DNA of 64,000 bases from Brevibacillus massiliensis (GTDB lineage: Bacteria; Bacillota; Bacilli; Brevibacillales; Brevibacillaceae), in assembly GCF_000311785.1 (NCBI RefSeq), contig NZ_HE978540.1:62001-126000 (forward strand), written 5' to 3'. Of the stretch, positions 3,392-42,741 are shown in pieces (positions within the stretch are counted from its first letter, which is position 1; every line of letters starts with the position of its first letter). The position numbers were made by a program, and so were the translations under genes. The notes beneath the pieces were generated by a model. That model was not told the DNA's origin and ran no database searches. It saw only the letters and a program-made list of their open reading frames with translations.

Positions 3392-3394
3392 TGC

Positions 3395-5351: not shown

Positions 5352-5600
5352 GTGAAAGCGACAGGCATTGTAAGAAAGGTGGATGAACTGGGAAGAATCG
5401 TCATTCCGATTGAGCTGAGACGAACTCTCGATATCGACATCAAAGACGCCTTGGAAATTTTCGTCGACAACGAGCGGATTATCTTGAAGAAATACGCCCC
5501 TGCCTGCATCTTTTGCGGAATGGCAGACAATGTTACCCATTTTAAAGGGAAGATGGTTTGCCACACTTGTTTAAATGAAATACCGGTTACAAAAGGATAA
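5352..5600 (+). CDS. abrB: AbrB-family transition-state regulator with zinc-ribbon tail
   Basis: Residues 1-50 match the swapped-hairpin DNA-binding domain of AbrB almost exactly (ATGIVRKVDELGRIVIPIEL). The C-terminal half lacks the usual AbrB multimerisation domain. It has CxxC, 14 residues, CxxC instead (CIFCG ... CHTC), a probable zinc ribbon that is common in Paenibacillaceae AbrB homologues. The start is GTG with AGAGGGG upstream. AbrB proteins repress stationary-phase, biofilm and sporulation genes during growth. The gene stands alone and ends in a strong terminator. Confidence 0.88.
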   Translation: MKATGIVRKVDELGRIVIPIELRRTLDIDIKDALEIFVDNERIILKKYAPACIFCGMADNVTHFKGKMVCHTCLNEIPVTKG

Positions 5601-5613
5601 GATAAAAAAGACG

Positions 5614-5657
5614 AAAACCGACTTTTGAGGCTTGTACATGCTCAAAAGTCGGTTTTT
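5614..5657 (+). terminator. Strong bidirectional terminator between abrB and NAD kinase
   Basis: A 16-bp perfect stem (AAAACCGACTTTTGAG and its complement) encloses an 11-base loop, with T-runs reading out on both strands. It serves abrB on plus and the NAD kinase gene on minus, which converge here. Confidence 0.9.
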
Positions 5658-5676
5658 CCTGTCATGTGTCTTTCCA

Positions 5677-6471
5677 CTATTCCGAGATAAACGATTTGCG
5701 TACCCTTTCCCAAAAAGACAGCTGCTTGTACCGGGCGAATTTCACTTTTCGGCTACCGACGCGGCAGGTAATCGAACGAACGCCCTTCCAGACATCTTGC
5801 TCGCGGTCCAGACCGATCATGATCTGCGGATTCATGACGATCAGTTCAATCTCATGGTGCCTGGGCAGTACCAGCGAACTGTTGATTGTCCGGTACATAC
5901 GGTTGTTGATCGACGCGATTTCGGACAGCTGTATCGCCTCGATGGAAGGATGGACGATCGCCCCGTCCACCGCTTTGTTGTAGGCGGTGCTTCCGGATGG
6001 CGTGGAGACGATCAGGCCGTCCCCGCGAAAAGTCTCAAACTCTTTGCCATTGATAAACACGCTTACGACCAGAGTGGAGAGAGAGGCATTGCGAAGGACA
6101 ATTTCGTTGATCACCCATTCCGTATGGGTCTTCCCATCCGCCGTATGAATCTGGCACTCCGCTGTCGGATATTCCACTATGACCGGATTTCCTTCGTCCA
6201 GCGCCTGAACGAATTGGTCGATCTCATCCGGACGCCAATCCGCGTAAAAACCCAGGTGACCGGTGTGGATGCCAACGTAATGGGGGGCAAATCCGTATTG
6301 GTGCACCGCTTCCAGAAATGTGCCGTCTCCCCCGATCGACAAGACGAGATCCGGGTCTGCGGCGGGATCGGTGACGAACTGATACGTCCCGGATTGCAGC
6401 AGTTTTTTTCTTACCAGTTGTTCCACTTCACGCGTATATTCGTCTTTGCGCAATACCATAGCAATTTTCAT
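5677..6471 (-). CDS. nadK: NAD kinase
   Basis: Phosphorylates NAD to NADP with ATP or polyphosphate, the sole source of NADP in the cell. The 264-residue protein carries the GGDGT motif at about 48-52 (LSIGGDGTFLEAV), the NE/D motif (WVINEIVLRNAS) and the glycine-rich STPSGSTAYN loop, all diagnostic of the family. Length is typical for Bacillales. It lies about 120 bases downstream of the yugN-like gene on the same strand, but a terminator separates them. Confidence 0.96.
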   Translation of the reverse strand: MKIAMVLRKDEYTREVEQLVRKKLLQSGTYQFVTDPAADPDLVLSIGGDGTFLEAVHQYGFAPHYVGIHTGHLGFYADWRPDEIDQFVQALDEGNPVIVEYPTAECQIHTADGKTHTEWVINEIVLRNASLSTLVVSVFINGKEFETFRGDGLIVSTPSGSTAYNKAVDGAIVHPSIEAIQLSEIASINNRMYRTINSSLVLPRHHEIELIVMNPQIMIGLDREQDVWKGVRSITCRVGSRKVKFARYKQLSFWERVRKSFISE

Positions 6472-6543
6472 GTAACCGGCCTCACTCTATTCTTCGTTGC
6501 TTACACTATACCACATGTGCAAAATCACGGCATCGAACAGCAG

Positions 6544-6580
6544 AAAACGGGTGAGCATTCAGACGCCCTCACCCGTTTCC
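6544..6580 (-). terminator. Terminator after the yugN-like gene
   Basis: AAACGGGTGAG pairs with CTCACCCGTTT around a 12-base loop. On the minus strand the stem runs into CGTTTTCTG, a modest U-tract. It separates the yugN transcript from the downstream NAD kinase gene. Confidence 0.6.
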
Positions 6581-6592
6581 CGTGTATTACCC

Positions 6593-7000
6593 TCAGCTAA
6601 AGCGCGACTCGACCATGCGCAGCACGTCTGCAGCCTTTTCCACCCATTCAGGCTCGACTTCGGCGTCTTTCTCGAGCGGCTCTTGAAACTGGTCCAGCAT
6701 CGGCGCGGCAATCGGCCCTGTATAGGCGCTAACATCCTCGTCCACGCCGGTCTGGTAGATGTGTTTGAGGACAAACGGCTTGTGCAGTTCAATGTCAGCA
6801 TCTGCTTCGTCCAGGACGCCTCTTTGAACGACGAAGGGGATTCGCAAAAAGACCATCGCTTTATCGTCCAACTGTCTGTCGAAAAAACCTTTGTCATAAT
6901 CCCAATTGCTGGCCAGTGTAAAGCCGTCCGCAGCCAGCATCTCGCTCATCCTGCCAAATTCGCCTGTCTGTCCCTCGATTCTGCTGTTGATGCTCTGCAT
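6593..7000 (-). CDS. yugN: YugN-like family protein
   Basis: A 135-residue soluble protein beginning MQSINSRIEGQTGEFGRM. The start at 7000 is chosen for the AGGCAGGGA ribosome binding site and family length; a longer frame to 7081 adds 27 non-family residues. It matches the YugN-like family in size and pattern (GNWDYD-like segment, FLRIPF, GVLDEADADI). In Bacillus subtilis yugN sits beside pgi, as it does here, which supports the assignment. The function is unknown. Confidence 0.75.
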   Translation of the reverse strand: MQSINSRIEGQTGEFGRMSEMLAADGFTLASNWDYDKGFFDRQLDDKAMVFLRIPFVVQRGVLDEADADIELHKPFVLKHIYQTGVDEDVSAYTGPIAAPMLDQFQEPLEKDAEVEPEWVEKAADVLRMVESRFS

Positions 7001-7351
7001 GCAAATCCCTGCCTTTCCCTGGTTCAACAGTAGTTTGCGACAAAAGGCAGGATTGTACTCCGGACCTCTGCACCGTGGCAAGCGCCTTAACGTTTTGATT
7101 TACTGTTCCGCCATCATTTTTGATAACGGCTTCCTTGCTGGTTCCTAGCGAAATATGAAACCCCTCGAGCTGGTTCTGGCCAAGGAGCGGCAAGAAATTT
7201 TGATCCAATGCCACTTTGGGTGCGGTACCCTTGTGGCTGATCGGCTCGGCAGCCGGCTTATACGCTGCCGGCAGTAGACTACAGCCTCGGCCTGCTTCAT
7301 GGCACACACTCCGCTCGCAGATAACCGGCTTTATCATGGTTAAGGGAAGTG
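7001..7351 (-). other. Intergenic stretch without a confident gene
   Basis: About 350 bases between the HTH gene and the yugN-like gene. A minus-strand open frame (6894-7337) covers it but overlaps the yugN start out of frame, has no clear ribosome binding site and matches no family I recognise. GC-rich short inverted repeats (GCCGGC near 7252 and 7270) could form a hairpin. It may be a long leader of yugN or a decayed gene. Confidence 0.4.
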
Positions 7352-7582
7352 CTAGTCCTCATCCTTGTAATCGTAACTCTCCGGAATCGGTTCAAATTTT
7401 TCTTCACGCTCGAATTCTTTCAGCTTCTTGATCTGTTCCAGATGAAAGTGGAATTGCTCCTTGTTGATCATGTATTCCTCGCCGTTGTGAACGGCGCGTA
7501 TTCTGCCTTCAGAGATTTTTTCCAGGATGAATGATTCCGGCAGATCCAGATAGGCTGCCGTCTCTTTTACTGTCAAGTACAT
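7352..7582 (-). CDS. Excisionase-type HTH protein coupled to pgi
   Basis: A 76-residue protein starting MYLTVKETAAYLDLPESFI. The N-terminal half is the winged HTH of the excisionase/HTH_17 (MerR-like) family (VKETAAYLDLP ... ISEGRIRAVHNGEEYMI). The rest is acidic and charged. The ATG lies one base after the pgi stop, so translation is probably coupled to pgi. No phage genes surround it, so this is a chromosomal DNA-binding protein rather than a true excisionase. Its targets are unknown. Confidence 0.7.
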   Translation of the reverse strand: MYLTVKETAAYLDLPESFILEKISEGRIRAVHNGEEYMINKEQFHFHLEQIKKLKEFEREEKFEPIPESYDYKDED

Positions 7583-7583
7583 G

Positions 7584-8945
7584 CTATCTACTCCCGTACA
7601 GCCGTTCAATCAGCCTGGCCTGCTGCGCTTCGCAGCCCGGTTTTCCCAGCAGAGCGAACATGTTTGCCTTATACGCGTCCACTCCAGGCTGGTCAAACGG
7701 ATTGACTCCCATGATGTACCCGCTGATTGCACACGCTTTTTGAAAAAAATAGAACAGACTGCCCAAGTGGAAAGCCGAAGCCGCTTCCACCTCTATCACC
7801 AGATTGGGCACACCCCCGTCCGCATGGGCCAGCAGGGTCCCTTCCAGCGCCTTTTTATTGATAAAATCCATTCCCTTGCCGACAAGGAAGTTGAGTCCGT
7901 CAGAATTGGCGGGTTCCGCCTTCAGTATCACGTCCCGGGCAGGGGTGGCGATCGACAGCACCGTTTCAAACAAATCGCGGCGTCCGTCTTGTATGTACTG
8001 CCCAAGCGAGTGAAGGTCGGCGGAGAACTCTGCAGATGCGGGAAAGATCCCTTTGCCGTCCTTCCCTTCCGACTCCCCGAAAAGCTGTTTCCACCATTCG
8101 GAAAAATACCGGAACTGCGGTTCATTTGTGACAAACAGCTCGATTCCCTTCCCTTTGCGGTAAAGCAGGTTGCGGATCGCCGCGTATTGATAGCACGGGT
8201 TCTCGTCCAGTTCCGGACTTCGGTACAGCTTACAGGCAGCGGCAGCGCCGGCCAGCAGTGCGTCGATATCGGCTCCGCTCACGGCAATGGGCAGCAGCCC
8301 GGCAGCAGTCAGCACCGAATAGCGGCCGCCGACATCTCCGGGGATGACAAAGCTTTCATACCCTTCACTTGCGGCCAGCTTTCGCAGGATGCCTGACTGT
8401 GTATCCGTCGTCACATAGATGCGGCGCCGGGCGCCTTCCGTCCCGTACCTTCCCACCAGGTAATCGCGAAACAGGCGGAATGCCACTGCCGGTTCCAGCG
8501 TAGATCCCGACTTGGAGACGACGTTGATCGATATTTCTTTTCCCTCGATGGCCTCAAACAAGTGGGAGACGTATACGGGACTAAGCGTGTTCCCGACGAA
8601 GTAACATTCAGGTGACTTCCTTTGCTTGCGCGAAAGCACGTTGGAAAAAGAATGGCCGAGAACATCCATGGCTGCTTTCGCTCCCAGGTAGGAACCGCCG
8701 ATGCCGATGGTGACAAACACCTCAGAGTCGTTCCGAATTCGTGCGGCTGCCCGTTTGACCCGCGCAAGCTCTGCCGGATCGCCGGCTAGCGGCAGTTCGA
8801 GCCAGCCAAGTGAGCTGTTTCCCGGACCCACGCGGCGATGCAGCATGTCATGAACATGCCGTACCGCTGGGGCAAGGTATTCCCACTCGTGGCATTTGAC
8901 AAATGGCAGTGCGTTTGCAAAGTCAAAGCGAATGGGCTGGCTCAT
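7584..8945 (-). CDS. pgi: Glucose-6-phosphate isomerase
   Basis: Interconverts glucose 6-phosphate and fructose 6-phosphate in glycolysis and gluconeogenesis. The length of 453 residues equals the short Gram-positive form. Visible hallmarks are [32 protein letters not shown] (phosphate-binding SKSGTT-like loop), [19 protein letters not shown] and the C-terminal [14 protein letters not shown]. The gene follows a 140-base leader and is coupled to the downstream HTH gene. Confidence 0.97.
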
Positions 8946-9086: not shown

Positions 9087-9356
9087 CTAACTGTATTTTC
9101 CGCCGCCTTTTTTATCGTACTCGGCCAACAGCTCGGCGAATGATTTATTCTTTTCCTTTTCCGCAAGCTCGCGGCGGCGGCGCTCCGCTTCAGCCGCTTC
9201 TTCCTCTTGTTTCGCGGTTTTCAGCTCGCGTTCCACCTGTTTCAGTTTGGCCAGCGCCTCATCACCCAGCAGATCTTTCAAGCTCTGTCCCGCTTTTTGC
9301 TCTGGCATGGGTGCGGCAGACGCACGGCCCTGCTGTTTTTTCGGTTTCTTAGCCAT
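9087..9356 (-). CDS. DUF3886 (YqkE-like) protein
   Basis: An 89-residue, highly charged, mostly helical protein (MAKKPKKQQGRAS ... KNKSFAELLAEYDKKGGGKYS). The SLKDLLGDEALAKLK segment and the closing NKSFAELL block match the YqkE/DUF3886 pattern. The start at 9356 is preceded by AAAGGGGC; the frame is open further upstream without a better start. A coiled coil is likely over residues 35-75. The function is unknown. It is divergent from the sspK-like gene 86 bases away. Confidence 0.65.
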   Translation of the reverse strand: MAKKPKKQQGRASAAPMPEQKAGQSLKDLLGDEALAKLKQVERELKTAKQEEEAAEAERRRRELAEKEKNKSFAELLAEYDKKGGGKYS

Positions 9357-9442
9357 ACATAAGCCCCTTTCCCCAATTTGCGTCTCATCCATTGTACCAT
9401 TTCTGGCCATACTAGGAAGAGCCAATGAGAGGGGGGATAAGC

Positions 9443-9574
9443 ATGGTTCGCAACAAAGAAAAAGACTTCGGGAAGACGGCTGACATTCGCGGCCCCAAAT
9501 CCCAGTCGGAGGCTGTCCGCTCCGACGGCTCCATCAACAGTCAACCACAGGAACGAATGAAAGAGAACAGATAA
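9443..9574 (+). CDS. sspK: Small acid-soluble spore protein K-like (SspK)
   Basis: A 43-residue hydrophilic protein that opens with MVRNKEKDFGKT and closes with DGSINSQPQERMKENR. Both ends are the conserved blocks of the minor small acid-soluble spore protein K family; the middle is shorter than in Bacillus (usually about 50 residues). The ATG follows GGGGGG at good spacing. SspK proteins are made in the forespore under sigma-G and degraded during germination. The assignment is from recalled family pattern. Confidence 0.7.
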   Translation: MVRNKEKDFGKTADIRGPKSQSEAVRSDGSINSQPQERMKENR

Positions 9575-9613
9575 AAACCCGCCTGGCATGGACGAACGCT
9601 GTGCCAGGCGGAT
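9573..9613 (-). terminator. Terminator of the glycosyltransferase gene
   Basis: CGCCTGGCA and TGCCAGGCG form a stem around a 13-base loop. On the minus strand it is followed by GGGTTTTTAT, so it acts on the glycosyltransferase transcript. It may also serve as a 3' barrier for the convergent sspK-like message. Confidence 0.8.
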
Positions 9614-9646
9614 CACCCTTCCGCATACCCGATTCGCCTCGGGGAG

Positions 9647-10855
9647 TTACCGTTTTTTCTTGCTCTTCTTCCGCTTTTTCCGTTCTGGCCGGGAGTGCTT
9701 CGCCCGTTTTTTCCGGGAGTGCTTTGCCCGTTCTCGCCGAGAGCGGCTTTTGCGTTTGGGAATTTGTCCTTCCGCCTGTTTTTTTCTGCTGCGGGACCGC
9801 TGTCTTTGCCTGCGCTTGCGCCGTCGTCGTGCGTTGTGCTTCCGTTTGCTGCTTGCAGCATGCCTGGCGCTCCGCCGCTCTGTCTGCCTAGAACTGTTCT
9901 GCGGCAACGGCACATGCGGCAGCGGGTAAACCGGCATGTGACTTACCGGCTGGGGACTGGTTCCTTGCTGATCGGTCGGCGGCTCCGGCGGCGGCAATTC
10001 CGGTCCGACCTGACTCGGTTCAGCTTCTGCTTCCTTTTGCTTTTGCCTCCCCGGAACCCATTGCAGCCTGGGATACTCTTGATAAATACCGACGAGTTTA
10101 TCGCTCAACTGGAATGTGTACCCGGCCTGAAAGAGCCGAAACCCAATCCTTTGATTCGCTTCCGTTTGATTGGAAGCAGGAGGGATCTGTCCGATTTGCT
10201 GGAACGCTGACCTTTCAACGGAGAGGTTCTGTGTTTGGAACAGGTGCCACGGTTCGTCCGCTTCCTCCGAATGGGTACCATCGCTTCGATGCAGCTCTTC
10301 CCGCTCTTCAGCTTCTTTTCCGGCCAGCCCAATTTCCGTCAGGTATTCCGTCTCCACCTGCTTCTCATCCAGCAGCGGCACGACCCGTTCCATGGTATGA
10401 GGCCGCTTGATCTGCGGGTAATCCTGCAGCCAGGCGAGGCATTCGGATTTTTGCCGCTCCGAGAAGTTCGGATAAAACACCGAGTAGACCCGGCGGTACA
10501 TCGTCCCGACCAGAATCATTTTTTCCTTTTGGCGATGGGCCTGGATATGCGTGCCCACAAAGGCGCGGGGGACAATCACATTGGCGCCGGAAAAAATCAG
10601 CAGGTCTCCCCTTGCTGCCTTTACTCCCTCATAAAGAAGCTCGCTGTACTTCTGCGGCTGATGCAACCAGACCGGCCGAAGCTGGTAATGGGCGGAAAAC
10701 TCCTCCACTCTTTCCCTCGTACCGTCCGCAGAAGCATTATCTACGACGACCACCTCGAATTGGTCAAACGGGGTGTACTGCAAATTAAAACTTTGCAGGC
10801 TGTATAGCAGACGATCAACGGCATTTTGGGCCAGAATAACGACGCTGACCAGCAT
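9647..10855 (-). CDS. Family 2 glycosyltransferase with Arg/Lys-rich C-terminal tail
   Basis: Residues 1-110 form a GT2 fold: MLVSVVILAQN, then VVVVDNASADGTRERV, then GDLLIFSGANVIVPRAF. Residues about 285-320 are a proline-rich linker. Residues 321-402 are an extreme basic tail with 44 Arg/Lys of 82, including a repeated RAKHSR unit and Ser-Arg runs. No membrane helix or signal peptide is seen. The tail resembles basic spore-coat or nucleic-acid-binding regions rather than anything in the GT2 family. It could anchor the enzyme to an acidic surface such as a spore coat or teichoic acid. Substrate unknown. Confidence 0.8.
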   Translation of the reverse strand: MLVSVVILAQNAVDRLLYSLQSFNLQYTPFDQFEVVVVDNASADGTRERVEEFSAHYQLRPVWLHQPQKYSELLYEGVKAARGDLLIFSGANVIVPRAFVGTHIQAHRQKEKMILVGTMYRRVYSVFYPNFSERQKSECLAWLQDYPQIKRPHTMERVVPLLDEKQVETEYLTEIGLAGKEAEEREELHRSDGTHSEEADEPWHLFQTQNLSVERSAFQQIGQIPPASNQTEANQRIGFRLFQAGYTFQLSDKLVGIYQEYPRLQWVPGRQKQKEAEAEPSQVGPELPPPEPPTDQQGTSPQPVSHMPVYPLPHVPLPQNSSRQTERRSARHAASSKRKHNARRRRKRRQRQRSRSRKKQAEGQIPKRKSRSRRERAKHSRKKRAKHSRPERKKRKKSKKKR

Positions 10856-31716: not shown

Positions 31717-32367
31717 CTAGGAAATCGTCGTATACGAATGAATGTCTTTGATTAGCTCGCTGGCGTTTAGCACATCAGCATATTTTTGTTCCATGTCAAA
31801 CAAGCTTTGGTCGTGCGAAGCGAGGGAACGATCGCCAACGGCGTCCTTTACGACTATCGGACGATACCCGTATTGGAGCGCATCAACCACTGTCGCCCGT
31901 ACGCATCCGCTGGTCGTGCATCCGGTCACAATCACCGTATCGATTCCGTTGACGTTCAAGCGGGAAATCAAATCCGTCCCGAAAAAAGCGGAAGCATACT
32001 TTTTGTTGAGGATGATGTCCCCTTTTTTGTAATGGAGCCGCGGATCCAACTGTACAGCATCCGTTCCGAATTTTAAGGTTTTTAAGCCTCCCATTTTTTT
32101 CAACCAGATTCCAGAATCCCCCATATTTTCTTCGTATGCGATTGTAGTGAATATGACGGGCAAGTTTTTTTCGTGAACCGCAGTCAGCAATCGATTGATG
32201 ACTTCAATCTGCCGGGATAAATCTGCCCCGAGAGGCATTGCCGGATCCGTAAAGCCTTTGATGACATCAACCACGAGGAAACAAGGCTTGTTCCCAATAC
32301 CTAGCGGTTGCCCAAAACCCCTTTCGCGAAAATGATGCAAATCATTTTGCCACTGATTGTTGTCCAT
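31717..32367 (-). CDS. nicF: Maleamate amidohydrolase (NicF-like cysteine hydrolase)
   Basis: A 216-residue isochorismatase-fold amidase. The catalytic triad is present: Asp34 in FLVVDVIKGFTDP, Lys122 in NKKYASAFFGT and Cys155 in TTSGCVRATVVDAL. The KYASAFFGT and TSGCVR blocks closely match the NicF/N-carbamoylsarcosine amidase branch. In the nicotinate route NicF converts maleamate to maleate and ammonia. It is the last gene of the nic cluster, 60 bases after nicE. The ATG at 32367 follows TTGGAGGAAACAC. The pathway role rests on the neighbours as well as on sequence. Confidence 0.87.
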   Translation of the reverse strand: MDNNQWQNDLHHFRERGFGQPLGIGNKPCFLVVDVIKGFTDPAMPLGADLSRQIEVINRLLTAVHEKNLPVIFTTIAYEENMGDSGIWLKKMGGLKTLKFGTDAVQLDPRLHYKKGDIILNKKYASAFFGTDLISRLNVNGIDTVIVTGCTTSGCVRATVVDALQYGYRPIVVKDAVGDRSLASHDQSLFDMEQKYADVLNASELIKDIHSYTTIS

Positions 32368-32427
32368 GTGTTTCCTCCAATTACCAAAATTCTTGTTCAC
32401 TTCCTCTTATTCGCGCTGCTGGGCAGC

Positions 32428-33177
32428 TCAATAACTGCCAGATAAAAGGGCCCCCGCATCAGGCACAATCGGTTTCAACCCCAGCGTCCTGAGGATTTGA
32501 TAGACTGTTGCCGTTGCTGCGGTTAGAACCGGTTTGCCCAACCTGTTTTCAACCTCCTGTACAGCCGGAAGTGACGGCATCTGAACACATGCTGAAAGCA
32601 CCACAGCATCCGCTTCCTGCACATTTAATTGTTCGGAAATCGAGATTAAATTCATCGGGTCCAGTCTGCCTACTGCAAGATTGTCGGGAACCTCCAGACT
32701 GATAGAGTCAACCACCTTGATACCGTAGGACTGAATATAGTCGATGACCATGCCGGTAAGCGGCTTCATATACGGGGCGATCAAAGCGATTTTTTTTGCG
32801 CCCATTGTCTGAATGCCCTGAATCAACGCCCCGGCACTGCTGACTGCGGGAATGTCAACCCCTGTGTCCTTCGCCGCCGCTGACAATTTCTCTTCCGAGA
32901 CAGAATGATAGCCAGGTCCATTGCACATGATCGCAACCAGACAGGCATATGCCAAGACATCGCACCTCGCATCTGCCAGTTCGACAGCGCAGCGGATGCT
33001 GTCATTGTCCATTTTGATCAATTCTTCCTTGGTCACATGCTGCATCCGCATGCGGCTAGAGTGAAAGGTAAATGTATCTTGTGCCAACCGTGAACGGGAT
33101 CTGAGCATTTCAGGAATCTCTGTTTCCATCGTTGTATTGGAACTGGGCACGATCAGCCCTATCCGAAAACTATTCAA
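32428..33177 (-). CDS. nicE: Maleate cis-trans isomerase (NicE)
   Basis: Asp/Glu racemase-fold enzyme that turns maleate into fumarate. The N-terminus MNSFRIGLIVPSSNTTMETE, the FTFHSSRMRM block and the two catalytic cysteines (Cys79 in YACLVAIM and Cys197 in LSACVQMPSLPAV) are family hallmarks, as is the closing GALLSGSY. I place the start at a TTG (33177) eight bases after AAGGAG, which reproduces the family N-terminus. Longer frames to 33201 or 33249 lack ribosome binding sites. It lies between nicX and nicF and gives the last step into the TCA cycle. Confidence 0.92.
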   Translation of the reverse strand: MNSFRIGLIVPSSNTTMETEIPEMLRSRSRLAQDTFTFHSSRMRMQHVTKEELIKMDNDSIRCAVELADARCDVLAYACLVAIMCNGPGYHSVSEEKLSAAAKDTGVDIPAVSSAGALIQGIQTMGAKKIALIAPYMKPLTGMVIDYIQSYGIKVVDSISLEVPDNLAVGRLDPMNLISISEQLNVQEADAVVLSACVQMPSLPAVQEVENRLGKPVLTAATATVYQILRTLGLKPIVPDAGALLSGSY

Positions 33178-33252
33178 ACTGTCCCACTCCTTTTTCAACA
33201 TGTTTGCCTTGCCGTACGTCATTGTGCCACTGCGAAACACAACCGACAAAAA

Positions 33253-34278
33253 TCATACCGGTTTCATTTCTTCGATCACGACGTCCCCATCCTTTACGAT
33301 GAGTTTGCCGTCCAGGTACAACGTGCAGTCTTTCAGGGGAATATCAAGATGGCATTTGGTATCATTGGTTCCGCCCAGTTCTGTATTTGGGCCTAACGAA
33401 AACAAGACATTTCCGTAAAAAGAGCGTCCGTCCATGCCAAACACGTTGCTGTCCAAGGCCAAACTGTGCCACTTGGCACGTTCATTCAGCCCCCAGCCGA
33501 TATGGGATATCGCGTAGGCCCGGGGATCCTGGAAACTTTCCATGTATTCCCTCATCAACATGGCGTCAAACCCGCCTTCAATCGTCGTGACCAAACCGTC
33601 TTTTATTGTGAGCGTTACCGGCTCCTGCACATACCTGTTAAACGGGAAGAGAATATCCCCGCGATCAAGAACAACTACTCCTTCCACGCCTCCGTCATTT
33701 GGCGTGCCTGCCGAAAATCCGCTTGGCAGATGATCCCATCTGCCCGGTTCATCGGCAAATCCGTATTCGACCAGGATGGGATACTGTCCCAACTGGTACG
33801 TTACATCCGTGCCAGCCTTGTTCGTAAATCTCAATTCTTTTGCCTTTTTTAATAAATCGGCAGCAAACAGCACCCTTTGCTTGTCGCTTGGTTTGGGGAA
33901 CATTCTTTTAATGACTTCAAACGGTTCAACAACCAACAAAATTCTTTTCCCTTCATTCTGCAGTTCCAACTGTTCCTTGGAGAACAACAACAAGACCAGA
34001 TCGATAATCAAATCCGCTTTTTTCAGCATTTCAACCGCTGCCCGGTTGTCTGTAAGCGGGGTAATTCCAAACGAACCCGAAATCCCCCGATTGGCGGGTG
34101 GAATGTTCAATTCAAATGTGTTCGCTCCGATCATTTTGGCTGCTTCCATAAAAGCTTTGGCATAATCTTTCAGAACTTCCCCTGACGTCAGCACAGCCAT
34201 CGTTTCGGTTGGCTTCAACTGGCAGAGTTCCAATTCCATTTTGAACAGTTCTACCATTTCGTTAAAATTTGTACTCAT
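33253..34278 (-). CDS. nicX: 2,5-dihydroxypyridine 5,6-dioxygenase (NicX)
   Basis: An iron-dependent ring-cleaving enzyme that opens 2,5-dihydroxypyridine to N-formylmaleamate. It has 341 residues. The fold is related to M29 aminopeptidases, but the diagnostic segments are those of NicX: GQYPILVEYGFADEPGRWDH, the iron-site region ISHIGWGLNERAKW, FYGNVLFSLGPNTELGG and KCHLDIPLKDC. The start ATG follows GAGGAGATGAAAGC. It sits between the importer genes and nicE. A generic aminopeptidase label is possible in databases but fits the context worse. Confidence 0.9.
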   Translation of the reverse strand: MSTNFNEMVELFKMELELCQLKPTETMAVLTSGEVLKDYAKAFMEAAKMIGANTFELNIPPANRGISGSFGITPLTDNRAAVEMLKKADLIIDLVLLLFSKEQLELQNEGKRILLVVEPFEVIKRMFPKPSDKQRVLFAADLLKKAKELRFTNKAGTDVTYQLGQYPILVEYGFADEPGRWDHLPSGFSAGTPNDGGVEGVVVLDRGDILFPFNRYVQEPVTLTIKDGLVTTIEGGFDAMLMREYMESFQDPRAYAISHIGWGLNERAKWHSLALDSNVFGMDGRSFYGNVLFSLGPNTELGGTNDTKCHLDIPLKDCTLYLDGKLIVKDGDVVIEEMKPV

Positions 34279-34311: not shown

Positions 34312-35028
34312 TTAACCATGCAGTAAATGCTGCTGCCCCATATAGATCGATTGAATGGATCGATCTTTTCGAAGCGTTTCGCTGTCCCCTGTCAATACCG
34401 TTCTGCCCAACTCAATGACATATGCCCGATCGGAAACTTCCAATGCCAGCTCGACATTCTGCTCGATCAGCAGAATCGTCATCCCTGCTTTGCGGAGCGA
34501 AATGATACTGTCAAAAATCATGTCAATAATCTGCGGCGCCAAACCCAGTGATGGTTCATCGAGCATCAGTAGTTTGGGCTCGCTGATTAGCGCTCTGCCA
34601 ATTGCCAGCATCTGCTGCTCTCCACCGCTGAGACTTCCGCCAAGCTGATTTCTTCGTTCTTTCAGTCGCGGGAACAATCGGAATATTTCCTCTATTTTTG
34701 TCTGATCGATTCTTTTTTTAAGAAATCCGCCCATTTTTAAATTCTCTTCCACGGTCAGAGTAGGGAAGATGCGCCGTCCTTCAGGAACTTGTGAAATACC
34801 CAAGGATACAATCTCGTGAGGTTGCTTTTTGCTGATGTCGGTGTGATTGAATTCGATCAGCCCCTCTTTCTGCCTGATCACGCCGCTGATCGACATCAAT
34901 GTGGTCGATTTACCTGCCCCGTTGTTTCCGAGAATGCAGATAATTTCCCCCTGGTTTACTTCAAAGCTGATATCTTCCAAAGCCTGCGCATTTCCGTAGT
35001 AGGCAATCAAGTGTTCCACTTTAAGCAT
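34312..35028 (-). CDS. livF: Branched-chain-type ABC transporter ATPase LivF
   Basis: A 238-residue ATPase of the LivF type: Walker A GNNGAGKST, signature LSGGEQQMLAIGRAL, Walker B LLMLDEPSLGLAP, and the LivF hallmark GISQVPEGRRIFPTLTVEENL. It pairs with the LivG half of the fused permease gene just upstream, whose stop it overlaps by eight bases. Together with LivH and LivK it forms an importer inside the nic cluster, so its substrate is probably a pyridine carboxylate rather than leucine. Confidence 0.9.
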   Translation of the reverse strand: MLKVEHLIAYYGNAQALEDISFEVNQGEIICILGNNGAGKSTTLMSISGVIRQKEGLIEFNHTDISKKQPHEIVSLGISQVPEGRRIFPTLTVEENLKMGGFLKKRIDQTKIEEIFRLFPRLKERRNQLGGSLSGGEQQMLAIGRALISEPKLLMLDEPSLGLAPQIIDMIFDSIISLRKAGMTILLIEQNVELALEVSDRAYVIELGRTVLTGDSETLRKDRSIQSIYMGQQHLLHG

Positions 35029-36805
35029 GCTTTCTGTCCCTCCTCCCTAAATATGCCTCCACAACTTGCGGATTTTGCATCACCTCCTCGGGGCTGCCAT
35101 CGGCAATTTTTTCTCCAAAATTCAACACAGCCATATGGTCGCAGAGGTTGGACAACAGATTTAAGTCATGTTCAACAATAAAAATGGTGATGGCGAATTC
35201 ATCCCGCAAACGTAAAATCAATTTTTGCAGTTGTTCTCTTTCCTTTAAGTTCAGTCCGGCTGCTGGCTCATCAAGAAACAAAATCTTCGGCCCGGAGGCG
35301 AGGGCGCGGGCAATTTCCGCCAAGCGGCGGTGTCCGTATGAAAGATTGGCGCATAATTCGAAAGCCTTGTCCTCCAAACCCGTTAACTTGATCAGTTGAT
35401 ACGCCACGTTGACAGCATACTGCTCCTCCGAAAGAAACTTTTTGTTTTGCAGCAGTGCCAGACCGATATCGTTTTTTAATCTGCATGACATTCCTGTTAC
35501 CACATTTTCCAGAACCGTCATGCTTTCGAACAACCTGCTCGTTTGGAACGTTCTTACCAAGCCCAGGCTGCCCAAATGAAATATCGTTTTATCTGTAACT
35601 TCTCGTTGCTGAAAATAAACTTGCCCCGATGTCGGTCTTTCCAACCCGGTTACAATGTTGATAAACGTCGTTTTGCCCGCCCCATTCGGCCCGATCAATC
35701 CAAAAATCTCTCCTGTCCGTACCTCCAGGCTGACATCTTGAAGCGCCTTGATGCCTCCAAATTGTTTCGTTACATGTTCGAGCTTTAAGATTGCACTGTC
35801 GTCCGCTTTGGTTTGAGACAGAAATTGTCTCAGATTGATCGTCGATCTTGCCACAGCAGTTTGTTTTTCACCCGATTTGAACCGTTTATGTAGAAAACCG
35901 TAAATACCATTCGGCAAAAAAATCATCATCAGCACAATGCAAACTCCGTATATAATCGGCCGGTACAATGGAATTTCTTTTAAAAATTCGTTAAAAAACG
36001 TGACGCCGAATCCTCCCAGTAAAGCCCCGGTAAAAGAACCCAGGCCGCCGAGAACGACCATAAGGATAACGGTAATGGATTCAAGAAAATGGAATGGCTC
36101 CGGGCTGATAAACGCATACATATGCACCATTACGCTGCCTGCCAATCCGGCCCAAAAACAGCCGATGATAAAACCTTTTGTTTTCGTAGAGCCGATATTG
36201 ATGCCTACTGAAGCCGCAGCAAGCTGGTTGTCACGAATTGCCCGAAAGTTTCTGCCCAATCTTCCTTCCGTCAGCCTGATCATAAAGACATACTGGACAA
36301 TCAACAAAATGGACGAAAGAATAAAAAATTCCTTCTTGCTGTCAACAGACCAGCCCAAAATGTTGGGATAGGGAATATTGGTTAGTCCGTTCCACCCTCC
36401 TGTCCAGCTTCCGCCGTTGGCAAAAACGATAATCAAGATTAAATTAAAGGCGAAAGTGGACATGGCAAAATAGATTTCCGAGAGTTTCGCCATCGGTGAA
36501 AGGATAATCGAGGCAATCGCGGCCACGATCCCCGACAGCAAGAAAGCAACAAGAAAATTCACATCCAAATGCAACGTGAGAATAGCCGAGGTATAAGCGC
36601 CGATGCCAAAAAAACCTGCCTGAGCTAGACTGACCTGACCGGCATACCCGAAAATGAGCTGCAGCGACACAGCCAAAATCGTATAAATCGCCGCCTGGGA
36701 AAACAACGACAAATAGTAGTTGGACTGGGTAAAAACGGCCGCCAACACAAAGATGATCAGATATACGATGATGGGTCCGTACGATTTGAGACGGTTTGAC
36801 TTCAA
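35021..36805 (-). CDS. Fused LivM permease - LivG ATPase
   Basis: A 594-residue fusion of two usually separate importer subunits. Residues 1-320 are a LivM-type permease with about nine membrane spans (LIFGYAGQVSLAQAGFFGIGAYTSA, the EAA-like RAIRDNQLAAASVGINI, VLGGLGSFTGALLGG). After a short linker, residues about 340-594 are a LivG-type ATPase: Walker A GPNGAGKTTF, LSYGHRRLAEIARAL as the signature, and LLDEPAAGLNLKE. The start overlaps the livH stop by four bases and the stop overlaps livF by eight. LivM-LivG fusions are known, but they are a minority arrangement. Confidence 0.92.
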   Translation of the reverse strand: MKSNRLKSYGPIIVYLIIFVLAAVFTQSNYYLSLFSQAAIYTILAVSLQLIFGYAGQVSLAQAGFFGIGAYTSAILTLHLDVNFLVAFLLSGIVAAIASIILSPMAKLSEIYFAMSTFAFNLILIIVFANGGSWTGGWNGLTNIPYPNILGWSVDSKKEFFILSSILLIVQYVFMIRLTEGRLGRNFRAIRDNQLAAASVGINIGSTKTKGFIIGCFWAGLAGSVMVHMYAFISPEPFHFLESITVILMVVLGGLGSFTGALLGGFGVTFFNEFLKEIPLYRPIIYGVCIVLMMIFLPNGIYGFLHKRFKSGEKQTAVARSTINLRQFLSQTKADDSAILKLEHVTKQFGGIKALQDVSLEVRTGEIFGLIGPNGAGKTTFINIVTGLERPTSGQVYFQQREVTDKTIFHLGSLGLVRTFQTSRLFESMTVLENVVTGMSCRLKNDIGLALLQNKKFLSEEQYAVNVAYQLIKLTGLEDKAFELCANLSYGHRRLAEIARALASGPKILFLDEPAAGLNLKEREQLQKLILRLRDEFAITIFIVEHDLNLLSNLCDHMAVLNFGEKIADGSPEEVMQNPQVVEAYLGRRDRKHA

Positions 36806-37677
36806 GCGGTATCCCTCCGTTTCTTTATGCCCAGTATGCCGGCAGGACGTATTAACAACACCAGAATCAAAATCGCATACAAGATCAGATCGCGAAATTC
36901 CGAGCTGATCATCGTTCCGCCAAACGCCTCGATCAAACCGAGCAAGATGCCGCCAATGACGGCTCCCATGATATTGCCAAACCCGCCTAATACAGCCGCC
37001 GCAAACGCCTTGATGCCAATAATCCCCATATCATAGGAAACGTAATAGAGCGGGCCTAACAGGACACCTGCGACTCCGGTCAAGGCTCCGGCTACCAGAA
37101 AAATGAGCGCGATGTATTTGCGGTGATTCACCCCAAGCAACTGTGACATGACGCGATCGTCTGCAATGGCTCTCATCGCCTGGCCTATACGGGTAAATTT
37201 AAAAAACAGCTGAAACAAAATCATAATAGAAAGACTTAATAGAATAATCGAAAAACTGATCGCAGAAATCTTTGCGCTTCCCAACTGAACCTGCCCGGCA
37301 GATAAACTGCTTGGAAAACTCAAAGGCTCCGCTCCCCAGATCAATGAGCCGATTTGCGGCAAAATAATCATAATTCCGATGCTGGCAATCAAGACATGAA
37401 TGCTTTGACCGCCGCGTTTTTGCACCGGATGAAACACAAGCACATTAGACAAGTATCCGACCAGACCAGCAATTGCCATGGTACACAACATGACCAGGTA
37501 AAAATTTTGGGTGCCATCGGTAATCAGACTGAACCCGACAAGCCCTCCGATCATGACAAACTCACCAGTGCCAATATTTAATACGCCCGACGAACGAAAG
37601 ATAAGACTGAACGACATGGCAATTAAACTGTAAATGCATCCGACGGCGAGACCACTAACGAATATGTCAAAATACAC
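36802..37677 (-). CDS. livH: Branched-chain-type ABC transporter permease LivH
   Basis: A 291-residue membrane protein with about eight spans. LivH hallmarks are GCIYSLIAMSFSLIFRSSGVLNIGTGEFVMIGG, the cytoplasmic loop RIGQAMRAIADDRVMSQLLGVN and AAAVLGGFGNIMGAVIGGILLG. It forms the translocation path with the LivM half of the fused gene. It starts 11 bases after the livK stop, so the two are co-transcribed. Confidence 0.93.
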   Translation of the reverse strand: MYFDIFVSGLAVGCIYSLIAMSFSLIFRSSGVLNIGTGEFVMIGGLVGFSLITDGTQNFYLVMLCTMAIAGLVGYLSNVLVFHPVQKRGGQSIHVLIASIGIMIILPQIGSLIWGAEPLSFPSSLSAGQVQLGSAKISAISFSIILLSLSIMILFQLFFKFTRIGQAMRAIADDRVMSQLLGVNHRKYIALIFLVAGALTGVAGVLLGPLYYVSYDMGIIGIKAFAAAVLGGFGNIMGAVIGGILLGLIEAFGGTMISSEFRDLILYAILILVLLIRPAGILGIKKRRDTA

Positions 37678-37688
37678 CGTATCCCTCC

Positions 37689-38864
37689 TTAATACGAACC
37701 GGCTTGAAGGACTTTTTCCAATTTCAGCTGTCCGTTATCCCAATTCACGATGAAAATCGGTTTTGTTGCTGAACCGTCATCGTTAAAGGATGTGAGCCCT
37801 GAAGCTCCTTCATAGTTTTTGATGTTCAGCAGTTCCTTCTGCACCTCGTCTGGGGCGGCAGATCCCGCTTTTTCGATCGCGGTCTTCAGGATATAAACGG
37901 AGTCGTATCCATGCGCCTGATAAACGTTGGGCTCCAGGTTGAATTTGCTTTTCCATGCTTCGATAAAGGTTTTCGTTTTTTCACCAATATCGGTGTCGGA
38001 AAAATAGGCCGCACTGATCATCGTATGATTGGAAGCATCACCGGCGATCTCATAATACTGCGGACTGGAGATTGGGTTTGTGGCGATAAACGGTTTGTCG
38101 TAACCAAGCGCTCTGGCCTGTTTCGCGATCAATCCGCTGTCCGCCGCATAGCCAGATAAAAATATGTAGGCATTCGGGTTTGAACTGATGCCTTGGCTAA
38201 TGTACGAATTAAAGTCTTTTGCGTCATTGGGATACTTGAATTCATGGACAATTTTCATGTCCAACTCCGCTGATTTCTCCCTAAAAGCTTTATAAACACT
38301 GGTGCCAAAAGCGTCATCCCGGATAAAAGCGATCACTTCTTTTACGCCCATCTCTTTCGCTGCATAGTAGGCGGCTGCCCAGCCAAACTGATTATTGTTG
38401 GCCAAATTCACAAAGAATCGCGGATTTTCGGATACGACTCCCGGATCTGACGCGATTGGTGACACGGCAATCATGTTGTTTTCCTTCACTTTGGCCACTT
38501 GTGACAAAGCAACCGCGCTGCTCGATCCGCTGATCACAAATTTGATATCCCGGTTGGCAAATTTGTCGATGGCCTGCTGCCCTTTAAACGGATTCCCTTC
38601 GTCGTCTTCCGATACCAGTTCTACTGTCTTCCCAAGAATTCCGCCGTTTTTGTTGATTTCATCGACAGCGTATTTTACCGCATCATACGCCGGTTTTCCG
38701 AAAGCGGCGGTTGCCCCGCTCAGCCCGCCGACATAACCCAAAGTCAACGTTCCTCCACCGCTTTTACTGCTTCCCGTTGATTCTGCAGAATTGTCCGTTC
38801 CGCAGCCTGTCAGAAGAAATGAAAGCAGTGACATCACTGACAACATTGATACTAATTTTTTCAA
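37689..38864 (-). CDS. livK: ABC transporter substrate-binding lipoprotein, LivK type
   Basis: A 391-residue type I periplasmic-binding-protein fold. The lipoprotein signal ends in LLTGC (lipobox, about residue 21), so the protein is anchored on the outer face of the membrane. The mature domain has LGYVGGLSGATAAFGKPAYDAVK and the two-lobed LivK pattern through YEGASGLTSFNDDGSATKPIFIV. The start is a TTG with AAAGGGG upstream. In this cluster the ligand is likely nicotinate, 6-hydroxynicotinate or a hydroxypyridine rather than a branched-chain amino acid. That is inference from position. Confidence 0.9.
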   Translation of the reverse strand: MKKLVSMLSVMSLLSFLLTGCGTDNSAESTGSSKSGGGTLTLGYVGGLSGATAAFGKPAYDAVKYAVDEINKNGGILGKTVELVSEDDEGNPFKGQQAIDKFANRDIKFVISGSSSAVALSQVAKVKENNMIAVSPIASDPGVVSENPRFFVNLANNNQFGWAAAYYAAKEMGVKEVIAFIRDDAFGTSVYKAFREKSAELDMKIVHEFKYPNDAKDFNSYISQGISSNPNAYIFLSGYAADSGLIAKQARALGYDKPFIATNPISSPQYYEIAGDASNHTMISAAYFSDTDIGEKTKTFIEAWKSKFNLEPNVYQAHGYDSVYILKTAIEKAGSAAPDEVQKELLNIKNYEGASGLTSFNDDGSATKPIFIVNWDNGQLKLEKVLQAGSY

Positions 38865-38965: not shown

Positions 38966-39784
38966 TTATTTCAGATGATCTCTGATGAAGGAGAGTATAT
39001 AATCTGCTGTTTCCTGCGGTGCCTCCTTATATACCATGTGACCAACGCCGTTCACGACAACTGCCTGCAAACGAGGATTGAGAGACTTCAGCTCTGCAAG
39101 TTCATCGGGACGAATCGTATCTCCAAGTTCAGCGGCTAACAGCAGCATCGGACATGCTGTCAATTTTACATTGACCTGAAAAGGTTCTTTGATAAAGTTG
39201 TTGTATGATTCAATGATCGCTTCCTTGCTTACGTTCAGGTATTCGGTTATTCGTATCTTCAACTGTTCTTCATGAAAGTGCGGATAAAAAGCGCGAAATT
39301 TGTCCCATTCTTCTTCATCAGCCGCAGCTTTTTGTTCCAGAAACATGGAAAGAGAATTCGGGTAAACTTGTCTATGACCCGGACCGGTAACCGGTGGGTC
39401 GATGAGCACCATTCCGGAGATGAGAGATGAGTATGCGCTGCCAAAACCGGATGCAATTCTCGCACCCATGGAATGGCCGACGAGGAATGGAGCAGTCGGA
39501 TTTCCGGTTAACGCATTCACCACATTTAATAGATCCTCAACGTAATCTTGCATACGGTATCCCTGTTTTGGCCAGCTGGATTTCCCACGCCCGCGAATAT
39601 CCATTGACAAACAAAAGAGGTGATCAGGCATCCGCTTTAAAATTTCCGAAAATGACATACTGTAGCTTGTGATGCCCGGAAGAAAAATAACCGGCACCCC
39701 ATTCCGATCGCCTTTGGTAAGTAAGTGAATATCCGCGTTAAGGCCGCTGACAAACATATGTCCGAAAAGTTCCTTATCGTCCAC
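38966..39784 (-). CDS. nicD: N-formylmaleamate deformylase-like alpha/beta hydrolase (NicD)
   Basis: A 272-residue alpha/beta hydrolase. The nucleophile elbow is GHSMGAR, the oxyanion region VIFLPGITSYSMSFSE with DIRGRGKSSWP is NicD-like, and the catalytic histidine is in VNGVGHMVYKEAP. NicD removes the formyl group from N-formylmaleamate, giving maleamate and formate. The start is GTG 39784 behind AGGGGGG. Hydrolases of this fold are diverse, so the specific role comes mainly from its position between nicC and nicX in a complete pathway. Confidence 0.82.
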   Translation of the reverse strand: MDDKELFGHMFVSGLNADIHLLTKGDRNGVPVIFLPGITSYSMSFSEILKRMPDHLFCLSMDIRGRGKSSWPKQGYRMQDYVEDLLNVVNALTGNPTAPFLVGHSMGARIASGFGSAYSSLISGMVLIDPPVTGPGHRQVYPNSLSMFLEQKAAADEEEWDKFRAFYPHFHEEQLKIRITEYLNVSKEAIIESYNNFIKEPFQVNVKLTACPMLLLAAELGDTIRPDELAELKSLNPRLQAVVVNGVGHMVYKEAPQETADYILSFIRDHLK

Positions 39785-39832
39785 TCTGATGCCCCCCTAT
39801 CGTGTACTGAAAATGATAAAAACTTACCAAAC

Positions 39833-41074
39833 CTACAATTCCTTCATACTGACGCTCGAAGAGACCCCAAAACGCTGACGGCACGTGGTCGCGTCATATT
39901 CGTATACCCACTCGGCACTGATGCCGACCGCATGAGGATTTCGGGTCTGCCTTTCCCGTATGGCAAGATCCCGCCGACGTTGTTCCTCAGGTGAATCCAG
40001 GTGGTAGGTACGGCCTCTTTCGCGGGATTGCAGCTGTACGTCCCGCGTTCGATTGCGACGCTCCGCTTCATACGCGTCTAGTGCCAGGGTTACGTTCCCG
40101 CCAAAATAAACAAGAGCTTCGGAAAGGACATAAGCATCTTCTATCGCCATAGCAGCACCCTGAGACAAGTATGGAAGCATGGGATGTGCTGCGTCACCCA
40201 GGAGTGTGGCATGACCTCGGGACCAGCGTTCCATAGGATTTCGGTCATACAATCCCCACTTGAAAACCAGTGAATTATCTGTGCGTTCGAAAAGACGAAT
40301 CAAATCAGAATGCCAACCATCGTACGCTTTCAATAGTTCTTCGGTCGAACTAGGCTCAGTCCATGATTCTTTCACCCATTCATCTGTCTCTTTGCAAGCG
40401 ACAATATTGACTGCGCTGCCACCCTTGACGTAGTAGGTAACCACATGCGCTTTGGGACCAAACCAGAAGGTTGCCGCTGGCAGAACGAAAGGCAGCGGAT
40501 GCTTGTCGACCGGGACAAGCGCACGCCAACACATGTGCCCGGTAAATGTCGGAGCATCCTTGCCCCACAAAGCCCCCCGGACAACAGAGCGTATTCCGTC
40601 CGCGCCAACAATCAGGTCACCCTCGAATTCATCTCCATTATCAAATACAGCAACTGCCTTATCCTCCCTTAGTTGAACATTTACACATTTGACATTAAAA
40701 GTAATGCACTCTTCCGGTAACCCTTCTGCCAAGATACTGTGCAGGTCAGCGCGGTGCACGTGATAGTACGCAGCACCAAAAAGCCTGACAAACGTATCCT
40801 TTAAGGGAGTTCGAAATAATTCCTCACCCGTCTCCCAACTGCGCCCCACCATCGCTTCCGGCAAGAAACCAACCTGCTGAATCTCGTTTTCAAGCCCGAG
40901 TGATTTCAATACCTTGACGGCATTAGGCGTCATTTGGATTCCGGCACCAACTTCCCTGAACTCCGCTGCTTGTTCAAACAATTGAAAAGAAATGCCACGC
41001 TGCCATAAAGCTCGCGCCAAAGCTACCCCGCCAATACCACCACCGATAATACCGACACGTAAAGACTTCTTCAT
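39833..41074 (-). CDS. nicC: FAD-dependent 6-hydroxynicotinate 3-monooxygenase-like enzyme (NicC)
   Basis: A 413-residue class A flavin monooxygenase. The dinucleotide-binding motif is GIIGGGIGGVALARAL, the DG motif is LIVGADGIRSVVR and the GD motif is HATLLGDAAHPMLPYLSQGA. NicC decarboxylates and hydroxylates 6-hydroxynicotinate to 2,5-dihydroxypyridine, the substrate of NicX encoded in the same cluster. Salicylate-type hydroxylases look alike, so specificity is inferred from context. The ATG follows GGGGGGAGATAAGGG. The only strong promoter seen lies about 280 bases upstream, giving a long leader. Confidence 0.83.
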   Translation of the reverse strand: MKKSLRVGIIGGGIGGVALARALWQRGISFQLFEQAAEFREVGAGIQMTPNAVKVLKSLGLENEIQQVGFLPEAMVGRSWETGEELFRTPLKDTFVRLFGAAYYHVHRADLHSILAEGLPEECITFNVKCVNVQLREDKAVAVFDNGDEFEGDLIVGADGIRSVVRGALWGKDAPTFTGHMCWRALVPVDKHPLPFVLPAATFWFGPKAHVVTYYVKGGSAVNIVACKETDEWVKESWTEPSSTEELLKAYDGWHSDLIRLFERTDNSLVFKWGLYDRNPMERWSRGHATLLGDAAHPMLPYLSQGAAMAIEDAYVLSEALVYFGGNVTLALDAYEAERRNRTRDVQLQSRERGRTYHLDSPEEQRRRDLAIRERQTRNPHAVGISAEWVYEYDATTCRQRFGVSSSVSMKEL

Positions 41075-41084: not shown

Positions 41085-41384
41085 CCCCCGTTTTTTATAA
41101 AGCTAAAAGGAACCAACCATTGAAGTTACTCGTTCTAGTCAATTGGTATTATTCGTTCACCCCTATTTCAACATTTGGCTGACGAGTAGATTGCTTTACT
41201 ACAAATCCCGACTATCGATTCCAAAAATGTCATATTTCACGAATGTACAATCGGGTATTTGAGTAAGTTTTGCATACCTTTTACAATAATTTGAAACATT
41301 TAAAACAAATAAAAGTTACCAAACATAATTATTTTTACTAATTTTCTTTTTTCTGATTATACTTTAATCCGAATTATCTGTCAA
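41085..41384 (-). promoter_or_regulatory. Nic operon promoter and long AT-rich leader
   Basis: TTGACA (41379-41384), exactly 17 bases, then TATAAT (41356-41361) on the minus strand: a perfect sigma-A consensus. A dyad (GATTA, five bases, TAATC; 41355-41369) covers the -10 box and part of the spacer and is a candidate operator. Transcription would begin near 41349, leaving a leader of about 275 nt before nicC. The leader is AT-rich with a weak CCCGA/TCGGG pairing and no recognised riboswitch. Confidence 0.75.
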
Positions 41385-41841: not shown

Positions 41842-42627
41842 TTACTTCGATTTTTTCAGTGATCCCGCTTCGTTCAGGCATTTCATCACTTTGTCCAACG
41901 TCATTACATCAGCGTAACGTGCATTTAAGTCAAGAAGGGTCGCTCTTTGAATCGATTCAGAACGGTCGCCGACAGCTTCTTCAGGAATGATGACACGATA
42001 ACCGCGCTGCAATGCTTCCACTGCAGTTGCTCGGATGCTGCCGCTCGTCGTGGTTCCAGCCAATATGACCGTATCGATTTCTCTTTGCTGCAGAAACTCT
42101 TCTAGCGGAGAACAATAAAAATCGTTAATGTAAGCGGTTGCATTAATCATATCATACGTAAATTCATCTAATTTCGGATGAATTTTCACCCATGCTGTAT
42201 TACGGTCAAGCAACTGTATGGAAGGAAATTTTTGTCCCCAAAGCTGTGAAAATCTATCTGCCGAGTCATAGATGGTCTTGCTAAAAACAACCGGAAAATG
42301 ATTGGCAAGAGCAGTTTTGACCAGTTGTGTCACCGCTTCAATCTGCCCGTTTAACTGAATGGATAATTTCGAATTTGGATCCGTAAAAGCCAAAGTCATG
42401 TCACGAACAAGCACAGCCGGTTTACCGCCAAATCCGATTTGTCCTGAGAACCCCTGCTGTGAATACAGATGCTGTATTTCGTCTAAAATGTACCTGCGTT
42501 GCCCCCCAGGTGTATAAATCACACTCAATCCGTATCCTTCCACAACACCGTCATGTTCCAGTCTGCGCAGCGTACTGGCTGAAATCCCAAGAAGTTTGGC
42601 TGCCTCTGAAATATTTAACAACTTCAT
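41842..42627 (-). CDS. MerR-type HTH fused to a catalytically dead isochorismatase domain; candidate nic regulator
   Basis: A 261-residue protein. Residues 3-55 are a MerR-superfamily winged HTH (NISEAAKLLGISASTLRRLE, then the wing YTPGGQRRYILDEI). Residues 63-245 are an isochorismatase-fold domain close to the NicF protein of this cluster (shared TTSG-IRAT and EEAVGDRS-type blocks). The catalytic Asp is kept (Asp76, VRDMTLAFTDP). The nucleophile position is Ser197 (codon AGC), and the K-YASAFFGT block is replaced by DMINATAYINDF, losing the Lys. An active amidase is therefore unlikely. I infer a ligand-sensing transcription factor that binds maleamate or a related amide. The ATG at 42627 follows GGGGAGGG. 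Confidence 0.85.
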   Translation of the reverse strand: MKLLNISEAAKLLGISASTLRRLEHDGVVEGYGLSVIYTPGGQRRYILDEIQHLYSQQGFSGQIGFGGKPAVLVRDMTLAFTDPNSKLSIQLNGQIEAVTQLVKTALANHFPVVFSKTIYDSADRFSQLWGQKFPSIQLLDRNTAWVKIHPKLDEFTYDMINATAYINDFYCSPLEEFLQQREIDTVILAGTTTSGSIRATAVEALQRGYRVIIPEEAVGDRSESIQRATLLDLNARYADVMTLDKVMKCLNEAGSLKKSK

Positions 42628-42711
42628 TTTGAAATACCCTCCCCGAATATTTGCACATGAATAAAAATCAAACGATTCTGTAGGTTTGATAAGTTTCATC
42701 AACTAAGAAAT

Positions 42712-42741
42712 ATTATATATTATTTGACGCTTACCTGCCAA
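42712..42741 (-). promoter_or_regulatory. Promoter of the MerR-isochorismatase gene
   Basis: TTGGCA (42736-42741), 18-base spacer, TATAAT (42712-42717) on the minus strand, about 85 bp upstream of the start codon. A near-palindrome (GTTGAT ... ATCAAAC, 42684-42703) lies just downstream and could be an autoregulatory operator. Confidence 0.55.

Follow-up and report, generated by a model that had tools for sequence, protein, structure and literature searches.

A MerR-type winged helix joined to a maleamate-amidase-like domain with a broken catalytic triad: a proposed nic repressor in Brevibacillus massiliensis

A gene on the minus strand of the window, the 64,000-nt stretch of the Brevibacillus massiliensis genome analysed here, encodes a 261-residue fusion protein (41842..42627; ATG at 42627, stop at 41842) in which a MerR-type winged helix-turn-helix precedes an isochorismatase-fold domain with a broken catalytic triad. 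It is proposed to be an autoregulated, one-component repressor of the adjoining nic genes, with a dead maleamate-amidase-type domain as its sensor and relief by a lower-pathway intermediate; the probability of this reading is put at roughly 70%. The former enzyme probably still senses a compound from the breakdown of vitamin-B3-type pyridines, and so releases the degradation genes.

Both domains supposed by the sequence-only reading score above their Pfam cut-offs. The winged helix (residues 3–55, 42463..42621, minus strand, bounded by Pfam and the family alignment) matches MerR at residues 5–46 with 29.1 bits (cut-off 28.2), a narrow pass that gives it the winged helix of a classical MerR protein, and HTH_17 at residues 3–56 with 27.6 bits (cut-off 27). 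Conservation in the fusion family peaks here, with 30 of 60 residues invariant. The maleamate-amidase-like domain (residues 63–252, 41872..42441, minus strand, bounded by Pfam and by sequence and structure comparison) matches Isochorismatase at residues 71–245 with 84.9 bits (cut-off 27). Its supposed resemblance to the cluster's own NicF was borne out by a gap-free alignment with 37% identity over 197 residues, and the solved structures nearest to it in sequence are those of N-carbamoylsarcosine amidohydrolases and maleamate amidases. A structure predicted with the window's own two proteins as input (mean pLDDT 57) was used for a fold check alone; the top fold matches of this low-confidence model are the maleamate amidases 4l07, 4l08, 3ot4, and 3uao and the N-carbamoylsarcosine amidohydrolase 1nba. 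About 10–15 residues separate the winged helix from the enzyme domain, judging by the Pfam bounds, the model being poor at the linker. On the plasmids examined, such proteins are annotated just as “isochorismatase family protein”.

In the window the order on one strand is fusion gene, nicC, nicD, ABC importer, nicX, nicE, and nicF, all on the minus strand. The putative target gene nicC (39833..41074) encodes a NicC-type FAD monooxygenase, and nicD (38966..39784) a NicD-type alpha/beta hydrolase that is a putative N-formylmaleamate deformylase. The branched-chain-type ABC importer within the nic operon (34312..38864) comprises livK, livH, a livM-livG fusion, and livF, livK being recognized by Pfam and the others from their translations. 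The gene named nicX (33253..34278), for a NicX-type 2,5-dihydroxypyridine dioxygenase, has no Pfam match and takes its name from the cluster context and from orthologues in the same clusters; nicE (32428..33249, Pfam) encodes a NicE-type maleate isomerase of the Asp/Glu racemase superfamily, and nicF (31717..32400, Pfam and alignment) a maleamate amidase with its Asp-Lys-Cys triad intact. Apart from the fusion gene, the nic cluster of the window showed no regulator gene. Within the importer, the single 594-residue ORF at 35021-36805 reads as a LivM permease fused to a LivG ATPase, as it does in the close relative G008.

The domain-architecture search proposed by the sequence-only reading found the same fusion intact at nine or more additional loci in the Bacilli. 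Among 399 Bacilli genomes, full-length fusions share 85% identity with the window's in G008, 59–66% in G157, G147, G207, G217, G232, and G392, and 47% in G197. Two Peribacillus frigoritolerans plasmids carry one that is 65% identical, G392 also encodes a paralogue at 40%, and a family search added a relative of that paralogue from G785. Most of the close orthologues have nic genes as neighbors, in several arrangements. The G008 fusion gene has nicC on one side and a divergent nicD-liv-nicXEF unit on the other, those of G232 and G392 are transcribed divergently from nicF-nicX-nicD-nicC, and those of G147, G207, and Peribacillus stand at the head of clusters in which an HpaB-type monooxygenase replaces NicC. 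The G207 and Peribacillus clusters also have nicE and nicF; that of G147 lies partly on another contig. By locus, nic genes adjoin it in L031, L033, L034, L036, L037, and plasmids L054/L055, and in L035 nicF alone does. Across the 399 genomes, a close intact fusion was found in eight, nicX in seven, and both in six (P = 4e-11, ignoring phylogeny). A genome search found no nicX match in G157 and G217, which have kept the fusion gene.

Since the lower pathway is common to NicC-type and HpaB-type clusters, the ligand is more likely to be a lower-pathway compound. The best-placed alternative, which we consider possible if rather doubtful, is a nic regulator whose ligand is 6-hydroxynicotinate or another upper-pathway compound instead of a lower-pathway amide or acid, much as the MarR-type BpsR responds to 6-hydroxynicotinic acid (PMC6837509). 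However, the fusion is found with NicC-type as well as HpaB-type upper pathways, whose clusters have the lower-pathway genes nicX, nicD, nicE, and nicF in common, and its pocket is akin to those of the lower-pathway amidases.

Three candidate operators were located in the window. The fusion gene has a TTGGCA-18-TATAAT promoter (42712..42741, minus strand), and 3' of its -10 box is the direct repeat AAACTTATC AAACCTACA (42676..42696, minus strand), one of two exact matches in the genome; it overlaps the site at 42684-42703 that had been picked out from the sequence alone. A second such site, at 41355-41369, proved to cover the -10 box of the nicC promoter (TTGACA-17-TATAAT, 12 of 12; 41356..41384, minus strand), and the likely nicC operator is instead AAAGTTACC AAACATAAT at 41304..41326 (plus strand), a match to the pattern with one mismatch. 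The candidate nicC/nicD operator, AAACTTACC AAACCTACA (about 39820..39840, plus strand), overlaps the end of nicC and is an exact match with the window's best score; no promoter was seen ahead of it.

The motif behind these assignments, which came in part from the window and the relative with 85% identity, is built on AAACTTA, which is present in 17 of 20 regulatory regions where three would be expected. Pairs at a direct spacing of 9 or 10 are strongly enriched: at spacing 9, 22 were seen against 4.3 expected, with a maximum of 11 over 200 shuffles. The operator consensus in catabolic promoters, TATGGAAGCTTTGGTAAGTTTGG, consists of two 9-bp units GGWARSTTT, and reads AAACTTACC AAAGCTTCC on the opposite strand. 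When the 64 kb were ranked with a matrix trained without the window, the nicC/nicD site came first at 39821-39840, the fusion-gene site second at 42676-42695, and the nicC site third at 41304-41323; with a weaker matrix from distant HpaB-type clusters only, the nicC/nicD site was still first in the window, at 39819-39838, and the other two were not ranked highly. The pattern AAACTTAYCAAASNT is matched exactly at two sites of the 5.06-Mb genome, both in the nic locus, a count that measures specificity and is no independent test because the pattern was written after the window was seen. Of eight one-mismatch matches in the genome one is at nicC, and those outside the nic locus are taken as chance because a reversed-pattern control also gave eight. 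In L036 and L037 the motif is weak or absent and the sites are more like inverted repeats; no exact inverted-repeat dyads with 5–6 bp arms common to at least four regulatory regions were found. Rfam gave no RNA element at the locus. As to a nicotinate hydroxylase gene in the proposed regulon, none of the genome's five molybdenum-hydroxylase-type genes is near any motif match.

The same genome has a second nic cluster (L043, G000:C1:1-16000, 33-8853), with genes for an XylR_N/V4R/PucR-type regulator, an HpaB-type monooxygenase, nicD, nicE, a flavin-reductase-like protein, nicF, and nicX. Neither a fusion gene nor the operator motif was found in the stretch read, which makes it a natural negative control. 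This bears on an account that we regard as unlikely, in which the fusion does not control the nic genes and the motif belongs to another regulator or reflects conservation of promoters by descent. Many of the sites do come from orthologous promoters, and the matrix from distant clusters alone performs less well in the window. The motif is found, however, in different promoters of one genome and in clusters having the fusion, is absent from this second cluster, and has no other evident regulator in the window's nic cluster to serve.

Position relative to the promoters suggests how the sites may work. Six catabolic promoters in the relatives' HpaB-type clusters read TTGAC[AG]-17-TARAAT, with the operator about 5 nt further downstream; in the window the operators are about 16 nt (fusion gene) and about 33 nt (nicC) downstream of the -10 box. 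Candidate operators just downstream of sigma-A promoters, where repressors bind, point to repression, and catabolic promoters with 17-bp spacers and near-consensus boxes would need no activator. A classical MerR-type activator, a symmetric dimer between -35 and -10 that twists a promoter with an over-long spacer when its ligand is bound, is improbable to about the same degree as the lack of nic control. It would fit the Pfam MerR score and the 18-bp spacer of the fusion promoter, but not the 17-bp spacers of the catabolic promoters or the 12-of-12 boxes of nicC; nor would it fit a motif that lies downstream of the -10 box as a direct repeat instead of a palindrome, or an enzyme domain that appears to begin almost directly after the winged helix, where MerR proteins have a coiled-coil helix. 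The window thus has direct repeats and spacers of 17–18 bp, not a palindrome between -35 and -10 with a 19–20 bp spacer.

Alignment with NicF puts the triad positions where they had been read by eye. The nucleophilic Cys is replaced by Ser197 (AGC, 42037..42039), the catalytic Lys by Thr164 (ACC, 42136..42138), and Asp76 (42400..42402) is the sole triad residue kept, all on the minus strand; Thr164 aligns with K144 of 1nba, equivalent to the first K of NKKYASAF in NicF. The protein therefore lacks the Asp-Lys-Cys triad of NicF-type cysteine hydrolases. The accompanying premise that this superfamily needs the triad holds for the amidases but not for every isochorismatase, EntB/PhzD-type enzymes being without the Cys. 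Among 11 compared fusions the Lys is absent from all (Thr or Ser instead), and the nucleophile position is Ser in nine, Ala in one, and Cys in one, against 22 of 22 stand-alone relatives with Asp-Lys-Cys intact. The pocket positions F81, G191, T194, and Asp76 are invariant, and T193 nearly so. The Cys-to-Ser change is the one that crystallographers use to trap substrate. In BiuH, C175S abolished activity, left folding unimpaired, and yielded a substrate complex (PMC5806882); the C162S variant of TrtA lacked activity and was co-crystallized with substrate (PMC7948467); and P. putida Ami C149A was crystallized with maleate (4l08). Given the same Cys-to-Ser change as in BiuH and TrtA, plus the loss of Lys, substrate binding without turnover would be expected, and the enzyme domain is predicted to be catalytically dead. 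A bifunctional protein still hydrolysing a substrate with Ser197 as nucleophile seems very improbable: Ser is conserved in nine fusions, Asp76 in all, and L039 retains Cys, but the Lys is gone from every one compared, Cys-to-Ser is by itself enough to inactivate BiuH and TrtA (PMC5806882, PMC7948467), and most loci encode an active same-fold amidase nearby.

The substitutions recur in orthologues about 59–85% identical that are under strong purifying selection, and so are more than chance. A comparison of the window with G008 gives the winged helix a dN/dS of 0.022, the dead domain one of 0.083, and NicF one of 0.063; a domain under purifying selection (about 0.08) that has lost its triad would be kept for something other than this catalysis. 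In the tree the fusions form one clade (support 93/89) beside the NicF clade, not inside it, which rules out a recent duplicate of the cluster's NicF. The earlier suggestion that an enzyme copy became the sensor of a nic regulator is thus supported as to the sensor, with the conserved loss of Cys and Lys, selection, nic linkage, and the shared motif in its favor, but not as to a recent NicF copy.

A search of 398 phylum-wide genomes found no fusion except in the protein's own genome, its single further match being essentially the enzyme part with the Cys kept; a genome-collection scan with the single fusion protein gave one fragment (L009) covering only part of the enzyme domain, and a viral-contig scan gave no match. 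Broken copies were also seen, both without nic genes in the stretch read: in G320 (L038, about 9400-10200) the reading frame is disrupted immediately ahead of the winged helix, and in G157 (L041, 9654-9947) there is the winged helix and the start of the second domain. In the window's own genome, L044 (G000:C1:495001-515000, 9759-10136) has a decayed second isochorismatase-type sensor domain (48% identity over 80 residues), the winged helix missing.

Two other kinds occur among the fusions. That of L039 (9574-10350), between genes for an aldehyde dehydrogenase and a thiamine-diphosphate enzyme, has lost the Lys and kept the Cys, and is a possible intermediate on the way to loss of activity. The orthologous fusions of L040 (about 9310-10075) and L074 (about 1490-2271) belong to another subgroup, with Cys changed to Ala and Lys to Thr, and are divergent from a gene for an isochorismatase-fold hydrolase with an intact triad. 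Neither has an ATG, GTG, or TTG ahead of its winged helix; the start may be the rare codon ATT, which follows a conserved GGAGG. A wider reading, which we favor with somewhat less confidence than the repressor itself, is of a new family of one-component regulators in the Bacilli: the sensor would be an isochorismatase-fold amidase inactivated through Cys-to-Ser, the repressor would bind BldC-like direct repeats, and at least three subgroups (nic-linked, L039 type, and L040/L074 type) would sense the substrates of neighboring active amidases of the same fold.

The DNA binding, repression, ligand, and allostery that we infer for the proposed nic repressor would combine as follows. In the ligand-free state the winged helices would occupy 9-bp direct repeats in tandem, just downstream of the sigma-A promoters for the fusion gene and for nicC and also at the junction of nicC with nicD-liv-nicXEF, and the bound protein would block transcription. 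Pyridine breakdown would supply a lower-pathway amide or acid, most likely N-formylmaleamate, maleamate, or maleate, which the former active site would bind without turnover for want of the Cys and Lys. The isochorismatase-fold oligomer would then change shape and the repressor leave the DNA. If true, this reading would give a clear example of how an enzyme fold is recruited to sense for its own pathway, and L039 may preserve an intermediate stage. The reading would also name a candidate regulator of Gram-positive nicotinate-type pyridine degradation, with a ready-made candidate operator, and the fusion suggests a sensor for maleamate-like compounds.

Among known systems, the proposed role is like that of NicR and BpsR, MarR-type repressors of the nicC and nicX operons in nicotinate catabolism (PMC10269826, PMC6837509), BpsR having 6-hydroxynicotinic acid as its allosteric effector (PMC6837509); their protein family is unrelated. 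The idea that the regulator type is new to nicotinate systems agrees with a search of the open-access literature, which found no isochorismatase-domain regulator described, most subscription journals lying outside its coverage. With the maleamate amidase NicF/Ami (3ot4, 3uao, 4l07, 4l08) and 1nba the fusion shares the fold, the Asp, and the pocket scaffold, at 25–30% identity to the solved maleamate amidases and N-carbamoylsarcosine amidohydrolase; unlike them it has a DNA-binding head, has lost Cys and Lys, and forms a separate clade.

The MerR-like protein BldC lines up head to tail on 9-bp direct repeats, AATTXXXX(C) (PMC5859096). The fusion has a MerR-type winged helix too, and its candidate operators are also 9-bp direct repeats with an AT-rich part and a C, an equal spacing that suggests its winged helices may bind as BldC does, if with a weak sequence match: 19 bits against the BldC model NF033787 (NCBIfam), below the cut-off of 77. 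A PDB search with the winged helix puts an Lrp-type protein first and reaches 6amk/6ama (“putative DNA-binding protein”) at E 0.09. The recognition-helix Arg of BldC is presumably kept as R22. BldC has no sensor domain, whereas the fusion has one. In NrtR and the Bacteroides AraR the winged helix is C-terminal. These Nudix-related regulators likewise join an enzyme fold to a DNA-binding domain and control metabolic genes (PMC6800001, PMC4666351), but with a Nudix in place of an isochorismatase fold. Enzyme-fold regulators as such are already known from NrtR and its relatives, and the new element would be the enzyme-derived sensor of isochorismatase fold.
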